Source: Flavobacterium praedii (lineage in GTDB: Bacteria > Bacteroidota > Bacteroidia > Flavobacteriales > Flavobacteriaceae). Taken from it: DNA of 64,000 nt. A program made the translations under genes and the position numbers. The notes below the pieces were generated by a model that did not search any database, was not told the DNA's origin, and saw nothing but the letters and a program-made list of their open reading frames with translations. The stretch covers positions 262,001 to 326,000 of the forward strand of contig NZ_CP113948.1 in the NCBI RefSeq assembly GCF_026810365.1. Reading direction: 5' to 3'. Shown piece by piece: positions 4,626 to 32,960 of this stretch (within the stretch, counting starts at the first letter, position 1; each line of letters begins with the position of its first letter).

Positions 4626-4711
4626 GATGCACTAGCCCTGATAGTAGTGGAAATCCTTATAAGCCGGGGTTCGGCTTATAAGATTGAAACGGATAGCAGG
4701 AAATAGCTCCT
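4626..4711. repeat. dispersed hairpin element with conserved ends, copy 1
   Basis: The ends CACTAGCCCTGATAGTAGTGG and CGGATAGCAGGAAATAGCTC enclose a palindromic core (CCTTATAAGCCG ... CGGCTTATAAG). The same ends recur in reverse at 38243-38394 with a different core, and nearly the same core recurs at 19055-19130. It sits between divergent genes, so it is not simply a terminator. A common repeat (CCCTTCGACTTCGCTCAGGA) follows directly at 4712-4731. Confidence 0.75.
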
Positions 4712-8398: not shown

Positions 8399-9742
8399 TT
8401 ACAAACCATAAGTTGTTATTCTAAATGGACTTGAGGCGCTTGTAAAAGTGTAAATAGTATTAGAAAATTGTATTTTAAAATTTTCTTTTTTGACGTATAA
8501 ACCTGCTGGATCCATCAATTTTGCGTCAATGCCTTTTAAGTAGGCTGGTTCTGGTATTAGTGCAGTACCATTGTCCCAAGAGTCATGAATAAGAACAATT
8601 GTTTTTGCTGTTGTATTTTCGGCTGTGGTTACATTGTGGTAAATTGTCTTTTTCCCGCCTGCAAATCGATATTCAATATAATTTCCAAAAGGAGTATTGA
8701 AATTCAGTTGTATTCTACTCAATTTTTGATTTGCAGGTAATGTAGCATTAACGGCATTCAACAAAGATATACACAGTGGTGAATTTGTTTGAGCACTTGA
8801 TAAATATGCAGCAATATATCCATATACTGTCTGAGGTTTACCATCCAAAAGATTTTTGTAATCATCGGTTAATACTAAAGGTTTGTCACTATATTTTATG
8901 GTTGCAGTGACATTGTTTGTCCCTGTGGCAGTAAAGGCTCCGGTTACATTATCATATGTAAAGTTGGTTAGTTTTTGCTTTCCGACTTCTACTGCGGGAT
9001 CAACAACAATACCCGTAGGTGTATAAGCAATTCCCATGTTATAACTCATACTTGATCCCGATTCTACAGAGTTTGCAACTGCAAAACGCGTAATATCTGT
9101 AAAACTAAAATCAAATTGATGTTGTGTTGTACCATCGTTTGTTTCCAATAATCTAAAAAGTGGTCGAGTAGGAGCTCCAATTACATTGGCTATCATATCA
9201 ATATTTTTGTGAAGATCTGCCCAATCTTGCGCCGTTGCTTTTACAAAATGAAGTTCAATAAAAGCTCTATTGGTTTTAAAAATGATTTCTCCATTTTCTT
9301 GACCATAGTACAAAAATTGAAAATCACCTTTGTATCCTTTTGCTCTTAGTGCTGCTGTTGGATAATTATCTGAATCGGATAGCAAGTGAATTCTATTTTT
9401 TGTTGTGAACACAAGACTTACAGAACTTCCTAATTGAATTTGGTACTCACTGTTGTAGATGGCAGTATCACTATCAAAATCGGATGCCATGTCGACTAAT
9501 CCGCCATTTTTAAATTTAAACAGATGGGTATAGCCTCCTAATTGCGTGTTGTCAGTAAAATAAACTGCTTTCCAACCAAATTCGGAGGATAACAGTAAAT
9601 CATTTAATTCTTTTTGTTTTGCTTGCAAACGTTCCGTTGGTGATTGTTCGAATTTTTGATCTGCATCTGTATTAGTACAAGCAGCAAACAGTAAGGCTAT
9701 AATACCTATAATTAGGTATTTATAAATATATTGTGTTTTCAT
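8399..9742 (-). CDS. DUF4302 lipoprotein
   Basis: The 447-residue protein has a signal peptide with lipobox LLFAAC (Cys22) followed by TNTDADQ. The opening of the mature part (SPTERLQAKQKELNDLLLSS, then FGWKAVYFTDNTQLGGYTHLF) fits DUF4302, a family of Bacteroidota outer-membrane lipoproteins. DUF4302 genes are usually encoded next to a SusC/SusD pair and a putative zinc metallopeptidase, exactly as here (17 bp after the metallopeptidase gene). It probably helps bind or present the locus substrate at the cell surface. No catalytic motif is visible. Confidence 0.8.
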   Translation of the reverse strand: MKTQYIYKYLIIGIIALLFAACTNTDADQKFEQSPTERLQAKQKELNDLLLSSEFGWKAVYFTDNTQLGGYTHLFKFKNGGLVDMASDFDSDTAIYNSEYQIQLGSSVSLVFTTKNRIHLLSDSDNYPTAALRAKGYKGDFQFLYYGQENGEIIFKTNRAFIELHFVKATAQDWADLHKNIDMIANVIGAPTRPLFRLLETNDGTTQHQFDFSFTDITRFAVANSVESGSSMSYNMGIAYTPTGIVVDPAVEVGKQKLTNFTYDNVTGAFTATGTNNVTATIKYSDKPLVLTDDYKNLLDGKPQTVYGYIAAYLSSAQTNSPLCISLLNAVNATLPANQKLSRIQLNFNTPFGNYIEYRFAGGKKTIYHNVTTAENTTAKTIVLIHDSWDNGTALIPEPAYLKGIDAKLMDPAGLYVKKENFKIQFSNTIYTFTSASSPFRITTYGL

Positions 9743-9759
9743 AATTATTTGATATTTAA

Positions 9760-10617
9760 TTAATTTATAACGGCATTTGTATTTTTTTCGGCTTCATCAC
9801 GTAAAGCATAGAAATCCATATCAAAAGCATCTTTAAAATATTTTACGACTAAAGCTTCTTTTGCTATTAATGCAAAATATGCCGAGTCACTTGTAATATT
9901 ATTCAAAAAATCTGCATACTCCGCTTTTGAACTAATTAATATTATAGATGCTGTTTCTGCAAAATCTTCATTAATATTAGATCTTGCATAACTAGTAATA
10001 AAACCTAATTCATTTGAGAGGGCATTTTCATAATTGTACCAATCTGCAGTATACCCAACTGGAGTAATTGCAGCCCAAGCTTTCTCATCAAAAGGTTTAT
10101 TCTGATTTAAAATATGAATATATTCGTGTTGAATGGTGTGTATAAATTCTTGTATATTTGCCCGATTTGTTTTGTCGATATAATCAGTTTCAAAAAGTGT
10201 TACGCGTTGCCCTCCTTCGGCTAGTCCTAAGGTTCTGGTACCTACACTATTTAAATTAACTCCACCTACCAAAACAATTTCTCGGGGAGCAATTTTTTTT
10301 ACAAAATCTGCCCCTCCAATTGTTTTATAACTGTCAAGCCAAATTTTTTGAACAATCTCAAGTGCAGGCTGAACGCTGCTTACTAATGGCGGAAATAAAT
10401 AGCGGCTATTATCAACCGTATTTTGATTCCACTTATATTGGACATTTATGTTGTAAGGGTTTAGATAATTTATACCTATCCAATTATCTAGTGCAGTTTT
10501 TGTTGGCTGATTAAAATCAAGCTGGCTTTCGCCTACTTGATCATCATTCGAACAAGCAGTAAGAACTGTCAATGCCAAAAACAAAACTGCTATTTTATTA
10601 TATTTTACTATTTTCAT
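9760..10617 (-). CDS. putative zinc-binding metallopeptidase, lipoprotein
   Basis: The 285-residue lipoprotein (lipobox VLTAC, Cys22, then SNDDQ, a likely surface signal) carries the zincin motif HEYIH (His164, Glu165, His168). A candidate third ligand region lies around GFITSYARSNINEDFAE, where the downstream Glu of NEDFAE would complete a gluzincin-like site. This matches the putative zinc-binding metallopeptidase family encoded beside SusD and DUF4302 genes. It suggests that the locus handles a protein or glycoprotein substrate and not a plain polysaccharide. It lies 19 bp after susD and 17 bp before the DUF4302 gene, in one operon. Confidence 0.85.
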   Translation of the reverse strand: MKIVKYNKIAVLFLALTVLTACSNDDQVGESQLDFNQPTKTALDNWIGINYLNPYNINVQYKWNQNTVDNSRYLFPPLVSSVQPALEIVQKIWLDSYKTIGGADFVKKIAPREIVLVGGVNLNSVGTRTLGLAEGGQRVTLFETDYIDKTNRANIQEFIHTIQHEYIHILNQNKPFDEKAWAAITPVGYTADWYNYENALSNELGFITSYARSNINEDFAETASIILISSKAEYADFLNNITSDSAYFALIAKEALVVKYFKDAFDMDFYALRDEAEKNTNAVIN

Positions 10618-10636: not shown

Positions 10637-12115
10637 TTATCTAGGATTTAATTCGATGCCATTACCTGAAGCATGAAGAGGTATTTGTAAAGCTCTACGA
10701 TTATCATCTTTGACTAAAATTTTGGTTGATTTGTTGTTAATTTCGTGATTAACAACAATATTAAAACGCTTTACATCGAACCATCTCATGCCTTCGTGTA
10801 TAAAATCTCTGCGTTTTGTTTCGGCAATTGCTTTTATATAAGAGGTTTGTACGGGGGTCATAGTATAAAACGGAGTGTACTCATCAGCAACTACAGGGTA
10901 TTTTGCAACAACTTTAGCTTCCGTTAGTTTATCTGTTGCGGCGTTGTATCCTGCTGTTCTAGTTGATAAAAAGTATTCCAATTCATCATTTGCCAAACTA
11001 ATCTGTCCAGCCATAACATGAGCTTCTATTCGATTTAAGAAAAACTCATCATTACTTAATAAAACTTCAGCAACATACGGTTCTCCGATTCCGGCTGTAA
11101 CATTTGTATACTTGAAATACTCATAGAACTTAGGAAGAAATACAGTTATGCTACTATTGGAAGAATAAAAATTGTACAGCCAGTTTTTTCCAAAAAGACT
11201 TGTGCCAGACCCTAAAATTTCTTGATATTTATCACCCGAAAGATAAAACCTGCTTTGAGAAGCTGATCTTCCGACAATTGAATTTGCAGACACAATTAAT
11301 AAGTTTGTTTGAGCAGCACTGCTTGCAAAATTTACACGTTGGTCATTTACACTCATTAAATCATAAGAGGCAAAATCTCTTAGTTTCCCAACTGGCTTTG
11401 CACCTAAGTCGTTTGATAATGCTATTACTCTATTCCAATCTCCTTTTATCAAATAAAACCTGCTCGCAAATGCTTTAGCTGCCTCTTTATTAAAATGGAA
11501 TTTTGGCTCTTTGTAACCATTAGTTATATAGGGAAGCCCTTCTTCAATATCTTTTTGAATAAAATCAAAAACTTCCTGAACTGTATTTCGCTTGTATTTC
11601 GCAAGTAGCTCATTTTCAGGTTTTGTAACATAGGGGATTCCTAGAGTTGTGCTTGCAGTAGCTGGATTGTAGCGTTTTGACCAGAAAGACACTAACATGA
11701 AATGCGAATAGGCTCTTGCTATTAATGCTTCTCCTTTTTGAGGATTTAAACTGCTTGGATTTCCTAATTGATCAATTGCTTGCAGTGCTGTATTTGCATG
11801 TGCAATAGCTCTGTAACAAGCATCCCAATAGAAGGCTTGAGTATCAATATTATTAGTTTCTGTTTGAATATCCCAATTGTAGTTTTGTTCATTTTTTGGC
11901 AGTGTTTCGGCTAGACCGCTATCAAATACATTATCCGACATTGTTTCGGCAATATCAAAATAACTCATTTGAGGATAAGCATTGACTAAAATTTCAGTAA
12001 TTTTATCGGGAGTATTTATTTCGGTTCTATTATCGGGTTTCTCAGAAAGAAAATCATCACAACTGCTAACAACTGCAAGCGTTAGAAGTAATAGTGTTAT
12101 TTTTAAGTTTTTCAT
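10637..12115 (-). CDS. SusD/RagB family nutrient-binding lipoprotein
   Basis: The 492-residue lipoprotein (lipobox VVSSC, Cys19, then DDFLSEKPDN) is the surface lid that sits on the SusC transporter and captures ligand. The N-terminal DDFLSEKPDNRTEI segment and the helical TPR-like part (ALIARAYSHFMLVSFW near residues 130-150) are characteristic of the family. The C-terminal ETKRRDFIHEGMRWFDVKRF motif is also typical. It lies 12 bp after susC. The substrate cannot be read from sequence, but the metallopeptidase neighbour points to a peptide or glycoprotein. Confidence 0.92.
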   Translation of the reverse strand: MKNLKITLLLLTLAVVSSCDDFLSEKPDNRTEINTPDKITEILVNAYPQMSYFDIAETMSDNVFDSGLAETLPKNEQNYNWDIQTETNNIDTQAFYWDACYRAIAHANTALQAIDQLGNPSSLNPQKGEALIARAYSHFMLVSFWSKRYNPATASTTLGIPYVTKPENELLAKYKRNTVQEVFDFIQKDIEEGLPYITNGYKEPKFHFNKEAAKAFASRFYLIKGDWNRVIALSNDLGAKPVGKLRDFASYDLMSVNDQRVNFASSAAQTNLLIVSANSIVGRSASQSRFYLSGDKYQEILGSGTSLFGKNWLYNFYSSNSSITVFLPKFYEYFKYTNVTAGIGEPYVAEVLLSNDEFFLNRIEAHVMAGQISLANDELEYFLSTRTAGYNAATDKLTEAKVVAKYPVVADEYTPFYTMTPVQTSYIKAIAETKRRDFIHEGMRWFDVKRFNIVVNHEINNKSTKILVKDDNRRALQIPLHASGNGIELNPR

Positions 12116-12127
12116 AAATTTATAATA

Positions 12128-15100
12128 TTAAAATGAAAGGTTGATAGCAAAAGTATATTGAGTGGTAACTGGCATGGCAACACCTCCAGTATTACGAAAT
12201 TCAGGATCTTGGCCATTTAAATTTTTGTCTGAATAAATTAACCAAGGATTAACAGAAGAGCCTTTTAAAGTAAAGACACTAAGTCCTAATTTTTTCTTCA
12301 AATCTTTTGGAAATTCCCAACTCAATGATATGTTTTTTAATCGTACAAAATCACCATCTGCAATTCTAACATCTGAATAGTTATAAGTGTTATATGCTCT
12401 TGCCAGAGTTCTTGATCCTCCATAATTCGAATTCAATTGTTGGTCTGCAATAACAGGGACGTTTGTATAATTTTCGTCACCAGGGTTAATCCAGCGGTTC
12501 GTAAATTCTTTAGTAAAAACAGTTAAATCATCATAAGTACTGTCATAAACAGGATTTAGGCGTACTTTGTTTCCACCAGATCCAACGAAAAAGACGTATA
12601 AAGACCAATCTTTATAGGTAAATGTATTTGCTAGACCAATTGATTTATTTGGTTCAATAGAACCTTCATATTTTAAATATTTAGTAACATCTTGATTGTC
12701 TTGAAAATCAGCTCCTGTTATATTATCTGTTTCCCCTTCAGGCATAATAAAAGTAGGTAAACCTTGATTATTTAAGCCTGTAAATTGGTACGAATAAATT
12801 GAATTTCTTGGGTGTCCAACTGTATTGCCTCCATTGCCATCGATCAAATCGAAAACTGTAGGTTTATTTTCTAATTTTGTAATCTCTTGATTGAAAATTG
12901 AAAAGTTTAAGGTTGTTGACCATTTAAAATCTTTAGTATTAATGTTTTTTGTAGAGAAACCAATTTCAAGACCTTTGGTTTCCATATTAGCATTGTTACC
13001 TTGTTTTATTCTTTGTCCTCCAATTCCAGAGGTAATAACATAATCTACCAAATCAAATGCTTTTCTGCTGTAAACATCTGTTGTAAATTGTATTCTGTTA
13101 TTGAACATAGCTAAATCAAAACCTATATTAGTTTCAAATTGTTTCTCCCAAGTCAATGCTCCATTTTGTAATTCCTCAATTTGGATTCCTGATTCTCTAT
13201 CATCAATATTAAAACGATCAGTAATATAACTTTTGTAAATCGCCAGTGAGTTAGTTGCAGGTCCAGCTGTTGCAGTTAGTCCATAAGAACCTCTTAGGCT
13301 TAAATTGTTTACAGATTCAACATTCTTCATGAAATTTTCTTCAGAAAGATTCCATTTCCCGCTAAAAGTATAAGTAGGTAGCCATCTCGAAGAACCACTG
13401 TCTCCTTGTCTGTTTGACCCATCATAGCGACCTGTTAAAGAAGCGGTATAGCGGCGATCGTAAGTGTATCCAACTTTACCAAAGAAACCTACCGTTCTTT
13501 CTTTTTCTACATTAAATCCATAATAAGAATCTCCACCATTAATTATTTTTTCGATAATTCTTGGGTCAGTAAAAGCGGTAAGACCACGGTCATACTGAAG
13601 TCCAGCTGCTGTAAAATTATCACTGTTTCGATCTACAACACGCATCTCAGTCCCGAAGAAACCTTCTAATTCATGTTTATCTTTAAAATTATTTCTGTAG
13701 GTAATACTGTTTCTAAGATTATAAGAAGTCAGATCATTTGTAAATTTTCTCAAGAAACCACCATTAGGTAAAACCGAAACTTTTGGAGCTGTTAAGTCAT
13801 TAGGGTCTTGATATAAAAAGATATTCTCATCCCTAACCAATGTGTTAACACCATCTTCACCTTCAGGAGTTCCTGCTTTGTAAGCGCCAACAACATTTGA
13901 ATTTTCTAGTATTTTATGTTCACGGCTTGTATTTGCATAACGTCCGGATCCAGTTAGATTATAGGTAAGATGTGAATTAATTTTATAATCTAAATCGAGT
14001 TGAAAACGAATGTCCTTAACTTCAATTTCCATATAATTATTTTTCAATTCATTTAAAATATTCATCGAAGCCCAATTGTTTCTATAATATTCTAAATTCC
14101 CATTCTCATCATAAGGTCTTAAAGTTCTGCTGGTATTCAAAACATAATTAAAAGGATTGATATCAAAATCTCTGGTAACTTTTCCAAAAACTTCATCTTT
14201 TTCACTTTCATAACTTCCTGGAGCTTCTTGATTACGAACCGAAGCTAGTGTAGAAAGTGTTATGTTTAATTTATCATTTATAAAGAACGTTCCTTTTATG
14301 TTTGATGATAATTGGTTTACTTGATCAGCAATAGTCCATCCTGGATCATTGTAAAAACCTAGTGAAGCATAAAAGGTGTTGTTTTTACCACCTCCAGCAA
14401 AACTCAAAGAATGATTTTGAGTAATTGAAGGTCTAAAGAGTATATTGAACCAATCAGTATTGGCTAATTCATATTTTTTTAGGAAATTATTACGGCTTAC
14501 GGGGTCATTATTTACTAAATAACCACCAGTTTCAGGAACATACGTATTAATTGCTCTTCCTAAAATATTATACGCACCTCCATATCTGCCATTTACCGTT
14601 GATGGTAAATCCAAATATCCTTTGGCTTCCATTTCTTTAAAAATGCTCATCGACTCTTGAGAATTTAAAATATCATATTGTCCATAATTAGGCACTGTTC
14701 TAAGGGATTGCTCTAATGAGTATGTAATTTTTAATGGTGAGTCTCTTCTGCCTTGTTTGGTAGTAACGACAACAACACCGTTTAATGATCTTGAACCGTA
14801 TATAGAAGTTGCCGATGCATCTTTAAGGATTTCTATGCTTTGAATATCGTTAGCGTTTAAACCCGCAATTGATGAACTTAATAAAGTTTCTGAGTTTCCT
14901 GAAGCTAAATCAGCAAATGAAAGATTAATAATATCTTCTTGTACAACACCATCAATAACCCATAGCGGTTTTGTGTCTCCAAAAATTGATGATGATCCAC
15001 GTACTGTAATTTTTGGTGCAGTACCAAAAGTACCGGTGACATTTTGTACAGTTACCCCAGCGGCTTTACCTTCAATCATTCGGCTGACATCAACTACACC

Positions 15101-15853
15101 ATCTACTTTGAGTTCTTTATCTGTAATTTTGCTTACAGCCCCGGTAAAAGTTCTTTTTGATGTTTTCTCATATCCAGTTGTAATGATAACTTCGTTAAGA
15201 CTTTGTCCTATTTCAGACAAAACTACAGTGATAAAATTGTTAGTAACATCAACCTCTTTCGTTTTCATACCAATATAGCTAACTACTATTTTTGTATTTC
15301 CAGAGGGTACTTCTATAGAGAAAGTTCCGTCGAAATCAGTTAGTGTTGCAACATTAGTACCTTTAACCAGTACTGATGCTCCTGGTAGAGGATTTCCACC
15401 ATTGTCGATTACTTTACCTTTAACAATGATAGACGCAATTAAATTAGAATTTAATGATTCTAAAAGGTTAAAATTTGTTGATTCTTTAGGAGGTATGGTT
15501 TGAAGCACAATCTGATTACTTATTTCAGAGTAACTGATGTTTAAAGGTAAAAGTATTTCGTTTAAAATACTAGACAAAGCTTCTTCGTTTGCATCGATGC
15601 TTACTTTTTGATTGAGTTGCGTAATTCTCGAATTATATGAAAATTTTACATGCGCAGATTTTTGAAGTTTAGATAAAGCATCATCCAAAGATAAATTGGA
15701 AACTACAATAGTTACCTTCGTATCTAATTTTTTTTGACCATTCACACTGTTTGCCATTGTAACAGTTGAAAAGACAAATGCTAAGACCAGCTGGAATAAT
15801 GTTATTTTCATGATTCGAAAGAGTAATCGTTGTTTTACAACAGGTTTTTTCAT
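12128..15853 (-). CDS. SusC/RagA TonB-dependent transporter with STN signalling domain
   Basis: The 1241-residue outer-membrane transporter has an N-terminal signal region (to about residue 40), then an STN domain (about 50-115, LSLDDALSKLQKSAHVKFSY). STN domains talk to FecR anti-sigma factors. A carboxypeptidase-like beta domain (about 145-225, GKVIDNGGNPLPGASVLVKG) follows. Next come the plug (from about 230, with GSSSIFGDTKPLWVIDGV and KDASATSIYGSRSLNGVVVV) and the beta barrel ending in Phe (FAINLSF). The STN domain fits the sigma/anti-sigma genes directly upstream. The start at 15853 gives MKKPVVKQRLLFRIMKIT; the internal Met of RIMKIT could be an alternative start with a shorter signal peptide. 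A predicted antisense RNA faces its leader. Confidence 0.95.
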   Translation of the reverse strand: MKKPVVKQRLLFRIMKITLFQLVLAFVFSTVTMANSVNGQKKLDTKVTIVVSNLSLDDALSKLQKSAHVKFSYNSRITQLNQKVSIDANEEALSSILNEILLPLNISYSEISNQIVLQTIPPKESTNFNLLESLNSNLIASIIVKGKVIDNGGNPLPGASVLVKGTNVATLTDFDGTFSIEVPSGNTKIVVSYIGMKTKEVDVTNNFITVVLSEIGQSLNEVIITTGYEKTSKRTFTGAVSKITDKELKVDGVVDVSRMIEGKAAGVTVQNVTGTFGTAPKITVRGSSSIFGDTKPLWVIDGVVQEDIINLSFADLASGNSETLLSSSIAGLNANDIQSIEILKDASATSIYGSRSLNGVVVVTTKQGRRDSPLKITYSLEQSLRTVPNYGQYDILNSQESMSIFKEMEAKGYLDLPSTVNGRYGGAYNILGRAINTYVPETGGYLVNNDPVSRNNFLKKYELANTDWFNILFRPSITQNHSLSFAGGGKNNTFYASLGFYNDPGWTIADQVNQLSSNIKGTFFINDKLNITLSTLASVRNQEAPGSYESEKDEVFGKVTRDFDINPFNYVLNTSRTLRPYDENGNLEYYRNNWASMNILNELKNNYMEIEVKDIRFQLDLDYKINSHLTYNLTGSGRYANTSREHKILENSNVVGAYKAGTPEGEDGVNTLVRDENIFLYQDPNDLTAPKVSVLPNGGFLRKFTNDLTSYNLRNSITYRNNFKDKHELEGFFGTEMRVVDRNSDNFTAAGLQYDRGLTAFTDPRIIEKIINGGDSYYGFNVEKERTVGFFGKVGYTYDRRYTASLTGRYDGSNRQGDSGSSRWLPTYTFSGKWNLSEENFMKNVESVNNLSLRGSYGLTATAGPATNSLAIYKSYITDRFNIDDRESGIQIEELQNGALTWEKQFETNIGFDLAMFNNRIQFTTDVYSRKAFDLVDYVITSGIGGQRIKQGNNANMETKGLEIGFSTKNINTKDFKWSTTLNFSIFNQEITKLENKPTVFDLIDGNGGNTVGHPRNSIYSYQFTGLNNQGLPTFIMPEGETDNITGADFQDNQDVTKYLKYEGSIEPNKSIGLANTFTYKDWSLYVFFVGSGGNKVRLNPVYDSTYDDLTVFTKEFTNRWINPGDENYTNVPVIADQQLNSNYGGSRTLARAYNTYNYSDVRIADGDFVRLKNISLSWEFPKDLKKKLGLSVFTLKGSSVNPWLIYSDKNLNGQDPEFRNTGGVAMPVTTQYTFAINLSF

Positions 15854-15860
15854 AATTTTG
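15830..15860 (+). promoter_or_regulatory. predicted plus-strand promoter of antisense RNA
   Basis: TTG at 15830-15832, a 20-nt spacer and TAATTTTG at 15853-15860 match the Bacteroidota promoter exactly, pointing away from susC coding sequence toward the terminator at 15947-15984. No plus-strand gene follows. Confidence 0.5.
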
Positions 15861-15866
15861 GTTTTG

Positions 15867-15985
15867 TTTTAATGAATATTTAATTAAAGGGTATTTTAAG
15901 AAACACTACAAATTTCACTTTACAGAGTGCAATTTGATTTTATTAGAGCGTCGAGTATGTTACAGCATATTCGGCGCTTTTTTTA
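15867..15985 (+). ncRNA. candidate cis-antisense RNA to susC leader
   Basis: A plus-strand transcript of about 120 nt is predicted from the promoter at 15830-15860 to the terminator at 15947-15984. It would be fully complementary to the 5' leader of the minus-strand susC gene. Antisense RNAs at this position, between anti-sigma and susC genes, are known in Bacteroides (DonS-type), where they repress the transporter. The call is an inference from promoter, terminator and position; no ORF is present. Confidence 0.5.
15947..15984 (+). terminator. strand-specific intrinsic terminator on plus strand
   Basis: A 13-bp stem (15947-15959 with 15966-15978), a 6-nt loop TTACAG, then seven T. Two pairs are G-U in the plus-strand RNA and would be A-C mismatches in the minus-strand RNA, so the hairpin is built for plus-strand transcription. 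Confidence 0.75.
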
Positions 15986-16014
15986 TTTTTATTTTTTATA
16001 AAGAGAAATTAGAA

Positions 16015-17136
16015 TTAATTACAGCCATTTGAAGATATGATAATTTGATTTCCGTTCATTTCGTAATTGGTATTGTTGCTAATACTTTTACAAATGATTT
16101 TTAGTTTTTCGGGTAAAGGCTGATCACTTAATGAGGTTGTTAGATGACAATTTTTTAATTTATCTATAGGGAAATCAATATTTACCAAATAAGCTTGTTC
16201 AATAGTCTTGAATATCTGTGCGACCGGTATGTCTGTGAATTCAAAACTTAATTGTTCAATATTTCCTTGGGTATGATCAAAAGATTCATCTTGAGTAATA
16301 TCAGTAATTTTATTGAAGGTTTGATTTTGTCTTGTAAACCGAAGTGCCTGATTGGGCAGTAATATGATTTCTTTTTCTTTTTCTTTTGAATTTGTTACTG
16401 ATGGATTCGATCTAACTCTAACCTTACCAGTTCGAACAATTACTTCAACGTTTGGTAAATCGGCATAAGCTTTTATTCTAAAACTCGTACCAACAACTTT
16501 GGTTACAATTTCATTAGCATATACAAAAAAAGGTTTTTTGGGATTTTTGCTAATTTCAAAAAAGGCTTCTCCAGAAAGATATACTTTTCTTGTGTTTCCA
16601 GTAAATATTTTTGGGTAACTCAGCTTGCTATTTGGTTTTAGCAGCACAGAACTTCCATCAGACAATGTTATTATTTGTGGTTTGTATGAATGATTTGTTT
16701 GCTCCACAAGATCAGTGTAATCGTCCTTTATAATCTCATTATAAGTAGATTCTGAATTATTGGAAACAAAATGATTATTGTAAAACCAATTGGATAAAAA
16801 GCCAAATAAGAATACCGCGGCAACCGCTTTCAGCCAATTTTTTTGCCATAATTGTACAGTTGATCTTTTTGCTTCGGCAGCTGATTTTTCTTTTTCATTG
16901 ATTTTTTTCCAAGTAGATTCTAATCCGCCTTGAATAACTTCAGATGGGATCTCTTCATGGTGCACGGACATCGCCAATAACCATAATCTGGAATCCTCGA
17001 CCAATTTGGCACGATCTGGATTTTCCAAAGTCCATTCTTCCCAACCTTGACTATCTACTTTTGATCGTACCCATAACTGGAATGAGGCATCGGCCAAAAA
17101 ATCTTCTATTTCTGTATAATTATTACGTTCTTGCAT
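16015..17136 (-). CDS. FecR-family anti-sigma factor
   Basis: The 373-residue inner-membrane regulator has a cytoplasmic N-terminal part (residues 1-105, with WEEWTLENPDRAKLVEDSR) and one transmembrane helix (about 108-128, WLKAVAAVFLFGF). The periplasmic FecR domain spans about 145-245 (ITLSDGSSVLLKPNSKLSY, then VYLSGEAFFEI, then VVGTSFRIKAY). A C-terminal DUF4974-like domain (about 295-370) resembles the STN fold. It should hold the ECF sigma factor encoded 89 bp upstream and release it when the STN domain of the loaded SusC contacts it. The sequence is complete, with no truncation. Confidence 0.92.
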   Translation of the reverse strand: MQERNNYTEIEDFLADASFQLWVRSKVDSQGWEEWTLENPDRAKLVEDSRLWLLAMSVHHEEIPSEVIQGGLESTWKKINEKEKSAAEAKRSTVQLWQKNWLKAVAAVFLFGFLSNWFYNNHFVSNNSESTYNEIIKDDYTDLVEQTNHSYKPQIITLSDGSSVLLKPNSKLSYPKIFTGNTRKVYLSGEAFFEISKNPKKPFFVYANEIVTKVVGTSFRIKAYADLPNVEVIVRTGKVRVRSNPSVTNSKEKEKEIILLPNQALRFTRQNQTFNKITDITQDESFDHTQGNIEQLSFEFTDIPVAQIFKTIEQAYLVNIDFPIDKLKNCHLTTSLSDQPLPEKLKIICKSISNNTNYEMNGNQIIISSNGCN

Positions 17137-17225: not shown

Positions 17226-17882
17226 TTAAAAAGTGGTTGCAGATAATAACAATAATAGGGAGAGATTGCCTTTCCATTCTCTTCGAAGTTGAAGTAATGC
17301 CCGATGTAATAAGTTATTCGCTGATTGATAATTGATCTGTAGTAATTCGGCAATTTGTTCCACGGTAAGTCCTTGATGGTATCGAAGATAGAGTGCTTCT
17401 TTTTGCCTGGCGGGTAAGTTGTTCAAAAATGAATTTAGATGTGCCACTTTTAGTGCTGACTCTTCATCTGAGATAAGTTGATGTTCTATTGAAAAATCAA
17501 ATAAAAATTCAATAGAATCCGTAGTCGATGTCTTCATAAAAATATAATCACGTTTCTGTAAGCGTGCAATTCTCTTGCGAACACTAGATAACAAATAAGC
17601 TTTTACCACAACCGAATTGCTTAATGATTGTCTGTAGATCCAAACATCTGCAAATACATCTTGTACGCAATCTTGTACTTTTTCTTTAAAAGGTGAAAAT
17701 GAATTTCCGTAGCGAATTAAAACCGAATAATATTTTTCAAAAAGTATTGAGAATGATTTTTCATCACCCGCTTTCAAACTGGACCAAAGTGTAGAATCTT
17801 CAGTATTTTTTATGTTTTGGATTTGACTTTTCAAAAGTAAGGGTATTTGTTGGTTTATTTGAATTGGATTAATGTTTTGCAA
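17226..17882 (-). CDS. ECF sigma-70 factor
   Basis: The 218-residue protein has sigma region 2 (about residues 40-110, FEKYYSVLIRYGNSFSP then DCVQDVFADVWIYRQSL) and region 4 (about 150-205, LPARQKEALYLRYHQGLTVE then helix-turn-helix). It is the ECF type paired with FecR anti-sigma factors in Bacteroidota and should direct transcription of the downstream susC operon. The order sigma, anti-sigma, susC, susD on one strand supports this. The N-terminal ~35 residues before region 2 are polar, and an internal start is possible. The C-terminus ends in a hydrophobic run (LSLLLLLSATTF), slightly unusual. Confidence 0.93.
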   Translation of the reverse strand: MQNINPIQINQQIPLLLKSQIQNIKNTEDSTLWSSLKAGDEKSFSILFEKYYSVLIRYGNSFSPFKEKVQDCVQDVFADVWIYRQSLSNSVVVKAYLLSSVRKRIARLQKRDYIFMKTSTTDSIEFLFDFSIEHQLISDEESALKVAHLNSFLNNLPARQKEALYLRYHQGLTVEQIAELLQINYQSANNLLHRALLQLRREWKGNLSLLLLLSATTF

Positions 17883-18997: not shown

Positions 18998-19054
18998 TAA
19001 ATAAAGTTCGATTATTAATTTGAAGCAGAAAGATTAGGTTTTTTTGCTAGCATC

Positions 19055-19130
19055 GTCCCGCTTTCCATTTCAATCTTATAAGCCGAACACCGGCTTATAA
19101 GGATTTCCATTTCAATCGGGGCTAAAGGGA
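19055..19130. repeat. dispersed hairpin element with conserved ends, copy 2
   Basis: This is a degenerate copy in reverse orientation relative to 4626-4711. The core TTCAATCTTATAAGCCGAA, then CGGCTTATAAGGATTTCCA, matches copy 1 with one mismatch in the loop, while the outer ends have diverged (TTCCATTTC repeated on both sides). Confidence 0.7.
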
Positions 19131-32735: not shown

Positions 32736-32869
32736 CAATGTCATTAAGTTAAGGGTTTCTCACTACGCTTTTTCAAAATATAACTCTCGCAAAGACGCGA
32801 AGACGCAAAGAAATGGCTCTTAACTTGGCGTCTTAGCGAGAAAAAACAAAGCTTAACTTAATGACATTC
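32736..32869. mobile_element. MITE-like element, copy 1, with 10-bp flanking duplication
   Basis: Terminal inverted repeats CAATGTCATTAAGTTAAG and CTTAACTTAATGACATT(C) enclose a TCGCAAAGACGCG-type hairpin. The bases CGCGTAAGGG occur exactly on both sides (32726-32735 and 32870-32879), as expected for a target-site duplication. There is no ORF. A second element with the same end motif is at 38459-38602. Confidence 0.7.
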
Positions 32870-32960
32870 CGCGTAAGGGATAGCAGTGAAAATCCTCCCG
32901 ATTTTTCTCGGGAGATTGCAACGGATAGCCCGACCCGACTTTTTCTGGAGGGATACGCCC
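32870..32960. repeat. dispersed hairpin element, GCGT...ACGCCC type, copy 2
   Basis: GCGTAAGGGATAGCAGTGAA ... hairpin CTCCCGA-TTTTTC-TCGGGAG ... ATTGCAACGGATAGCCCGAC ... GGATACGCCC. It shares GATAGCAGTGRAAATCC and GATTGNAACGGATAGC with copy 1 of the other type (4626-4711). Its left edge was apparently split by the MITE-like element. Confidence 0.75.

Follow-up and report, generated by a model that had tools for sequence, protein, structure and literature searches.

Positions 15853-15985 of the window (the whole stretch of DNA analysed, 64,000 nucleotides long) probably hold the gene of a DonS-type cis-antisense RNA, which would keep susC down until the ECF sigma factor of the locus fires. The start and stop signals of this RNA are kept in the relatives compared and the layout recurs at similar loci; thus, the RNA is probably a built-in brake on susC. 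The initial annotation of this DNA had read the interval as an antisense RNA gene, and the genome comparisons reported here support that interpretation. SusCD systems under sigma/anti-sigma pairs are a main route of glycan and peptide uptake in Bacteroidota, and if an antisense RNA with the same fixed geometry is present at most such loci in Flavobacterium, control of this kind would reach well beyond gut Bacteroides.

Gene setting and signals of the predicted antisense RNA

The host genome is a single contig of 4.17 Mb, and the protein genes of the locus all lie on the minus strand. The features are the following.

17226-17882, minus strand: ECF sigma factor (Pfam Sigma70_r4_2, Sigma70_r2)
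16015-17136, minus strand: FecR-type anti-sigma factor (Pfam FecR, FecR_C)
15947-15984, plus strand: intrinsic terminator of the predicted antisense RNA, loop TTACAG, T7 tail (fold, terminator scan, orthologs)
15910-15935, plus strand: hairpin 1, with the invariant 8-nt loop TTTACAGA at 15919-15926 (covariation in orthologs)
15865-15985, plus strand: predicted antisense RNA of ~121 nt (from promoter and terminator positions; predicted 5' end)
15853-15860, plus strand: TAATTTTG, putative -7 box for antisense transcription; it fits TAnnTTTG and overlaps the susC start codon
15830-15832, plus strand: TTG, candidate -33 element of the antisense promoter, 20-nt spacer to the -7 box
12128-15853, minus strand: SusC-like TonB-dependent receptor with N-terminal STN domain, the presumed target (Pfam STN, CarbopepD_reg_2, Plug)
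10637-12115, minus strand: SusD-like lipoprotein (Pfam SusD-like_3, SusD_RagB)
9760-10617, minus strand: putative zinc metallopeptidase Peptidase_Mx1 (Pfam PF15890)
8399-9742, minus strand: DUF4302 protein (Pfam PF14135)

No glycosidase family was found among the nine proteins scanned with Pfam, and SusCD is accompanied by Peptidase_Mx1 and DUF4302; the position of these two genes behind susCD only suggests a protein or glycoprotein as the uptake target. In the list of frames the sigma gene starts with TTG, and a search for ATG-started frames of at least 120 aa missed it.

The gap between the anti-sigma gene and susC measures 161 nt. The initial annotation had described here a plus-strand promoter, a 13-bp terminator stem with a T7 tail, two G-U pairs favouring the plus strand and no ORF, and these observations were borne out. 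The coordinates of the TTG, the 20-nt spacer and the -7 box were confirmed, and the box also overlaps the susC ATG (15851-15853, minus strand). The motif TAnnTTTG is the reported sigmaA -7 consensus of F. psychrophilum, where the box lies at -12 to -5 (PMC9723704), which would put the start of the antisense RNA near 15865 and its end near 15985. Since the RNA would begin ~12 nt before the susC ATG, it should be complementary to the leader from about -12 upward and leave the start codon uncovered.

The terminator stem pairs 15948-15959 with 15966-15977 (12 pairs), to which A15947-T15978 adds one, and the seven T residues occupy 15978-15984. Both T15951-G15974 and G15955-T15970 are G-U pairs in plus-strand RNA and A-C on the minus strand. 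The plus strand of 15939-15984 folds at -22.2 kcal/mol (z -8.0, 0/200 shuffles as good), the minus strand at -10.7 kcal/mol, and a simple terminator scan lists the hairpin as a plus-strand terminator. Over 15867-15985 the MFE is -32.4 kcal/mol, with a z of -6.4. No plus-strand ORF of at least 80 aa lies at the antisense site and no short ORF is conserved, the longest closed frame (ATG, GTG or TTG start) ranging from 0 to 28 codons over the 49 aligned rows described below.

Conservation among susC orthologs

The SusC protein search gave 79 loci, and 48 of the first 53 were aligned with the window, for a total of 49 rows; five loci (L045, L046, L047, L050, and L052) were left out because their SusC match begins behind the STN domain. 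All 48 aligned orthologs are titled Flavobacterium or Flavobacteriaceae. A susC-bearing relative without the promoter or terminator, named in the initial annotation as the outcome contrary to its reading, was not among them (both kept in 48/48). The comparison proposed there, for the promoter and for compensatory changes, found TAATTTTG on the susC start codon in 49/49 rows and changes on both sides in 6/11 terminator pairs. The terminator test of our survey was passed with a TTACAG loop in 49/49 rows, and the TTG is likewise invariant in 49/49 rows, but it also lies within susC codons. At the DNA level, among the matches listed, nearly full-length ones to 15821-15990, with E no higher than 4e-15, number about 120 and are spread over about 117 of the 398 genus genomes; any match at E 0.001 occurs in 185/398, the further listed ones being short and located around the start-codon box.

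Considering the two hairpins together, 95.6% of the cells pair and 11/19 pairs changed on both sides, values of which 0/500 shuffles reach either, with the reservation that the structure was drawn from the same alignment on which it was scored, which favours it. Sliding the hairpin partners abolishes the covariation signal. In hairpin 1, 5/8 pairs have both partners replaced in one ortholog or more. The strand polarity resides in the terminator, where 50 cells are G-U if the RNA is antisense vs 3 if it is sense; hairpin 1 shows little strand preference (19 vs 11). The antisense fold is more stable than the sense one in 48/48 distinct rows.

The loops TTTACAGA and TGTTACAGCA are invariant, and those at 15919-15926 and 15958-15967 share TTACAG. 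By eye, a third hairpin with a TTACAG loop is present near the fecR stop in many orthologs. Since an RNA can pair with a leader of any sequence, the invariance of the loops counts against the preferred reading to some degree and calls for a further constraint.

These loops could be taken to mean that conservation here reflects a sense-strand control region (a leader structure, or the ECF promoter and its operators) and that the antisense signals are incidental. Coherent with this are the shared TTACAG, which reads CTGTAA in sense, the third such hairpin upstream, and a sense GCCTATG found at -141 to -156 from susC, just outside the antisense terminator, in 45/48 orthologs (range L002-L054). 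Nevertheless, both the T tail of the terminator and its G-U polarity (50 vs 3) are those of the antisense strand, a sense terminator occurs in 0/79 of the Flavobacterium gaps presented below, and the start-codon box fits the antisense promoter consensus in unrelated leaders and in two registers. We thus consider a sense-strand control region unlikely, and the antisense RNA remains the preferred reading. The window, L024, L026, and L037 lack the GCCTATG motif, so its reading as a sense promoter is a lead only; its core CCTATG was found in 16 of the 113 pooled groups described below vs 1/85 control gaps. Should this motif be the mark of the sense promoter, almost all of the leader would be covered by the antisense RNA.

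The region upstream of the sigma gene was aligned for 44 orthologs, without the window and L053 (no sigma frame by the ATG criterion) and without L009, L014, and L030 (no room). By eye, no autoregulatory TTACAG/CTGTAA element was found in this alignment, and a TATATTTAT-like block was seen.

Recurrence at FecR loci of Flavobacterium

FecR_C was sought in 61 automatically drawn genomes of the genus, taking the first in-frame ATG as start codon. We examined 91 loci from the top of the match list, mostly with longer FecR proteins: 79 gaps were tested and 12 were skipped (gap below 60 nt). In some loci the receptor follows a short FecR at once, which leaves no room for the layout. The 79 tested gaps include a further locus of the host genome (L081), one ortholog of the locus studied here (L141), and one locus with a misassigned start (L191).

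An antisense terminator was found in 70/79 anti-sigma/susC gaps and a sense terminator in 0/79, vs 4/85 and 13/85, respectively, among control gaps, which derive from orthologous neighbourhoods and are mutually redundant (32 after de-duplication). The difference holds for the de-duplicated sets, with an antisense terminator in 29/37 groups vs 3/32 controls (Fisher p 6e-9) and a box that lies on the ATG and ends in G or A in 26/37 vs 1/32 (p 3e-9). Shuffled gaps carried an antisense terminator in 6/185 cases. Counting distinct leaders, the box with last base G or A lies on the ATG in 43/56 vs 1/51 controls (47 vs 3 with the last base free). The exact TAnnTTTG stands at -7 in 38/79 gaps, while 34/79 are without it near the start and 9/79 are without an antisense terminator. 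Predicted RNA lengths are 72-143 nt (median 92, n=45), vs 78-128 nt for DonS-type RNAs.

A shared -33 element was sought across 54 groups and discarded: the excess of TTG at spacings 18-20 is weak, with 13 matches over three positions. The terminator loop GTTnnnGC recurs in 11/49 distinct Flavobacterium hairpins and in 16/73 groups, among otherwise unrelated terminators; these counts were made without a control set.

The clearest control comes from the host genome, where we tested 30 of the 53 CarbopepD_reg_2 matches, mostly TonB receptor-like (not all were checked); the receptor of the third FecR locus, the short L083, lies outside these 30. The antisense box lies on the ATG in 2/30, and these are the genome's two STN-type FecR loci, namely the one studied here and G000:C1:480576, both of which also have an antisense terminator. 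The other 28 genes have the box at -7 in 0/28 and an antisense terminator in one, where it is part of a two-way hairpin. The second locus (L081, L228), located outside the window, has an antisense terminator of its own, unrelated in sequence, and TACTTTTG on its susC start codon. Neither box nor terminator was found at the SusC homologs lacking the STN part (L045, L046, L047, and L050), which belong to Mesonia, Salegentibacter, a Weeksellaceae strain, and a Flavobacterium MAG.

The greater regularity of the terminators compared with the exact box at -7 (70/79 vs 38/79) fits a different account, in which an antisense RNA is transcribed yet regulates nothing itself, and the terminator only shields the anti-sigma and sigma genes from stray antisense transcription arising at the AT-rich susC start. 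Part of the antisense transcription in a low-GC genome may be noise that arises at random promoters, as discussed in the available text of PMC7366714. Against this account stands the box, present in 49/49 orthologous rows and 26/37 Flavobacterium groups, and at -7 in none of the other 28 tested CarbopepD_reg_2 genes of the same genome. We hold shielding alone to be quite unlikely, and a regulatory antisense RNA to be the better explanation of the box.

Distribution beyond the genus

FecR_C was also sought in twelve named genomes, eleven of which gave testable gaps (70 loci, 59 tested, 11 skipped). An antisense terminator was found in 33/59, a sense one in 1/59, and the box (G/A) at -7 in 21/59. 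Loci with both box and terminator occur in Pedobacter, Olivibacter, Dyadobacter, Spirosoma, Algoriphagus, Siphonobacter, Paraflavitalea, and Bacteroides graminisolvens, less regularly than in Flavobacterium; Bacteroides is the genus where such antisense RNAs are already described (available text of PMC7366714, PMC10994844, PMC11697453). A class-level sample (47 loci, 31 tested, 16 skipped; 20 loci from four genomes chosen as FecR-rich) gave 16/31 gaps with an antisense terminator, that of L234 lying inside susC, one with a sense terminator, and 8 boxes at -7. In a phylum-wide sample (27 loci, 20 tested, 7 with short gaps), the antisense terminator lies inside the gap in 3/20, one being the ortholog of the locus studied here, which speaks against universality of the layout across the phylum. 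The antisense layout is common in the class and far from universal.

Pooling gave 113 groups, 73 with an antisense terminator, 54 with the box at -7 and 11 with a box at -3, figures that are biased upward because rows without an STN-SusC-like downstream start were dropped by eye (L191, 9/31 class rows, and 3/59 named rows). The box at -3 is a second register, in which TAnnTTTG covers the whole ATG, mainly in Pedobacter and Olivibacter. Among the groups whose second codon starts with TA, 11/14 have preceding bases that complete the box, vs 1/99 other groups; ten of these 11 belong to Pedobacter or Olivibacter and one to another class genome, their SusC N-termini (MY...) being in part related. 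At ten Pedobacter/Olivibacter susC starts (L334-L336, L340, L342, L345-L348, and L353), the bases before the ATG, the ATG and the tyrosine codon together spell an antisense TAnnTTT(G/A). The second residue of SusC may thus be fixed by the antisense promoter in Pedobacter and Olivibacter. If most Flavobacterium loci of this type carry such an RNA, the opening codons of SusC would also be under constraint from antisense promoters.

We put forward a broader generalization as a tentative one, which we do not expect to hold in full: across much of the class Bacteroidia, ECF sigma/anti-sigma/STN-SusC modules would have an antisense RNA gene as their regular fourth part, built by one rule. The susC start codon would be overlain by the -7 box, which stands at -7 or, where residue 2 is tyrosine, at -3, and a terminator would close the leader. 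Sense and antisense transcription would then be mutually exclusive by geometry and form a toggle, each passage of a polymerase over the start codon choosing which RNA is made.

Proposed mechanism

Transcription of the RNA, repression of susC and the steps that follow are what we infer from the signals described. A promoter of the housekeeping-sigma kind would drive the ~121-nt RNA away from susC, and the RNA's own terminator would end it before the anti-sigma gene; given the kind of promoter, the RNA is probably made by default. It would then pair with the A-rich leader of the basal susC mRNA, while the antisense polymerase would meet the sense one, in whose path the antisense promoter lies. 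Pairing and polymerase encounter together could keep the susCD and peptidase genes low. A substrate signal relayed by the STN domain and FecR would release the ECF sigma factor, whereupon strong transcription of the sense strand would outnumber the antisense RNA and run through the antisense promoter. If most Flavobacterium loci of this type carry such an RNA, the geometry narrows the possible mechanism, as the leader would be covered and the start codon would not, and the promoter stands in the path of the sense polymerase.

Relation to known antisense and trans-acting RNAs

In Bacteroides, DonS-type RNAs are placed between the anti-sigma gene and susC, at loci with an ECF sigma/anti-sigma pair that serve mucosa-derived glycans. 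The original work on DonS and the PUL-associated cis-antisense RNAs of Bacteroides is reportedly that of Cao et al. (2016, J Bacteriol). In the available text of later papers, the name DonS covers a family of antisense RNAs, 78-128 nt long, that lie opposite Bacteroides susC genes (PMC7366714), of which ten, later 32, were annotated in B. thetaiotaomicron (PMC7366714, PMC10994844, PMC11697453); DonS represses its operon, by a mechanism stated there to be unknown (PMC11697453). The likeness to DonS pointed out in the initial annotation fits in location and in predicted length (~121 nt): as far as those texts describe DonS, both lie opposite the susC 5' region at a polysaccharide-type locus, divergent from susC. 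The sigma/FecR pair (17226-17882 and 16015-17136) and the STN domain in SusC (Pfam) are present as well. The present locus differs in its genus and in bearing a peptidase, and its RNA is a predicted one; furthermore, its -7 box lies on the start codon, an arrangement not described for DonS in the available text of PMC7366714, PMC10994844, and PMC11697453.

For F. psychrophilum, a map of 287 antisense regions shares the genus and the promoter consensus with our locus; its available text names no susC/anti-sigma antisense class, and its supplementary list may contain some (PMC9723704). Among the titles and abstract starts listed from the open-licence literature, none reported DonS-type RNAs for Flavobacterium, and the start-codon -7 box with its genus-wide recurrence was not found in the available text of PMC7366714, PMC11697453, PMC10994844, PMC10861873, PMC5635687, and PMC9723704. 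On the basis of these sources, the kind of RNA is already known from Bacteroides, and what appears to be new is the genus-wide recurrence and the start-codon geometry.

A second comparison is with the FopS RNAs of B. thetaiotaomicron, which, in the available text of PMC11697453, share a housekeeping-type promoter and a terminator hairpin with our locus and target the susC translation start. Like them, the RNA studied here might act in trans on other susC mRNAs. Its invariant loops would suit such a role, and the host genome encodes one RRM-domain protein, the type to which RbpB belongs, which counteracts FopS in B. thetaiotaomicron (PMC11697453, available text). However, FopS and GibS are described there as a trans-acting paralogous family with a shared seed, whereas the RNA sequences of our different loci are largely unrelated, and at each locus found the RNA lies opposite its own susC. 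The covariance model R1, built including the window row, scored 149.5 bits at the locus and 26.5 bits at the next match in the window, which was rejected as a paralog, being the opposite strand of the same hairpin; the rest is at chance level. Neither the window nor L081 and L083 (the other two FecR loci of the host genome) yielded a second copy with R1, and the own-genome DNA search with 15700-16100 matched one place only, so paralogous copies with a shared 5' seed of the FopS type were not found in these searches. Action in trans therefore seems very improbable to us, and we retain a cis-acting RNA.

The RRM_1 match mentioned above is the only one in the genome and lies at G000:C1:3539611-3539820, in an open frame of 123 aa; it is a candidate RNA-binding protein like RbpB of Bacteroides. 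The Rfam search gave no family at gathering score at the antisense site, and its only matches in the window are three Flavo-1 motifs (RF01705) located elsewhere, at 4630-4707 (plus strand), 19050-19127 (minus strand), and 32866-32939 (plus strand).
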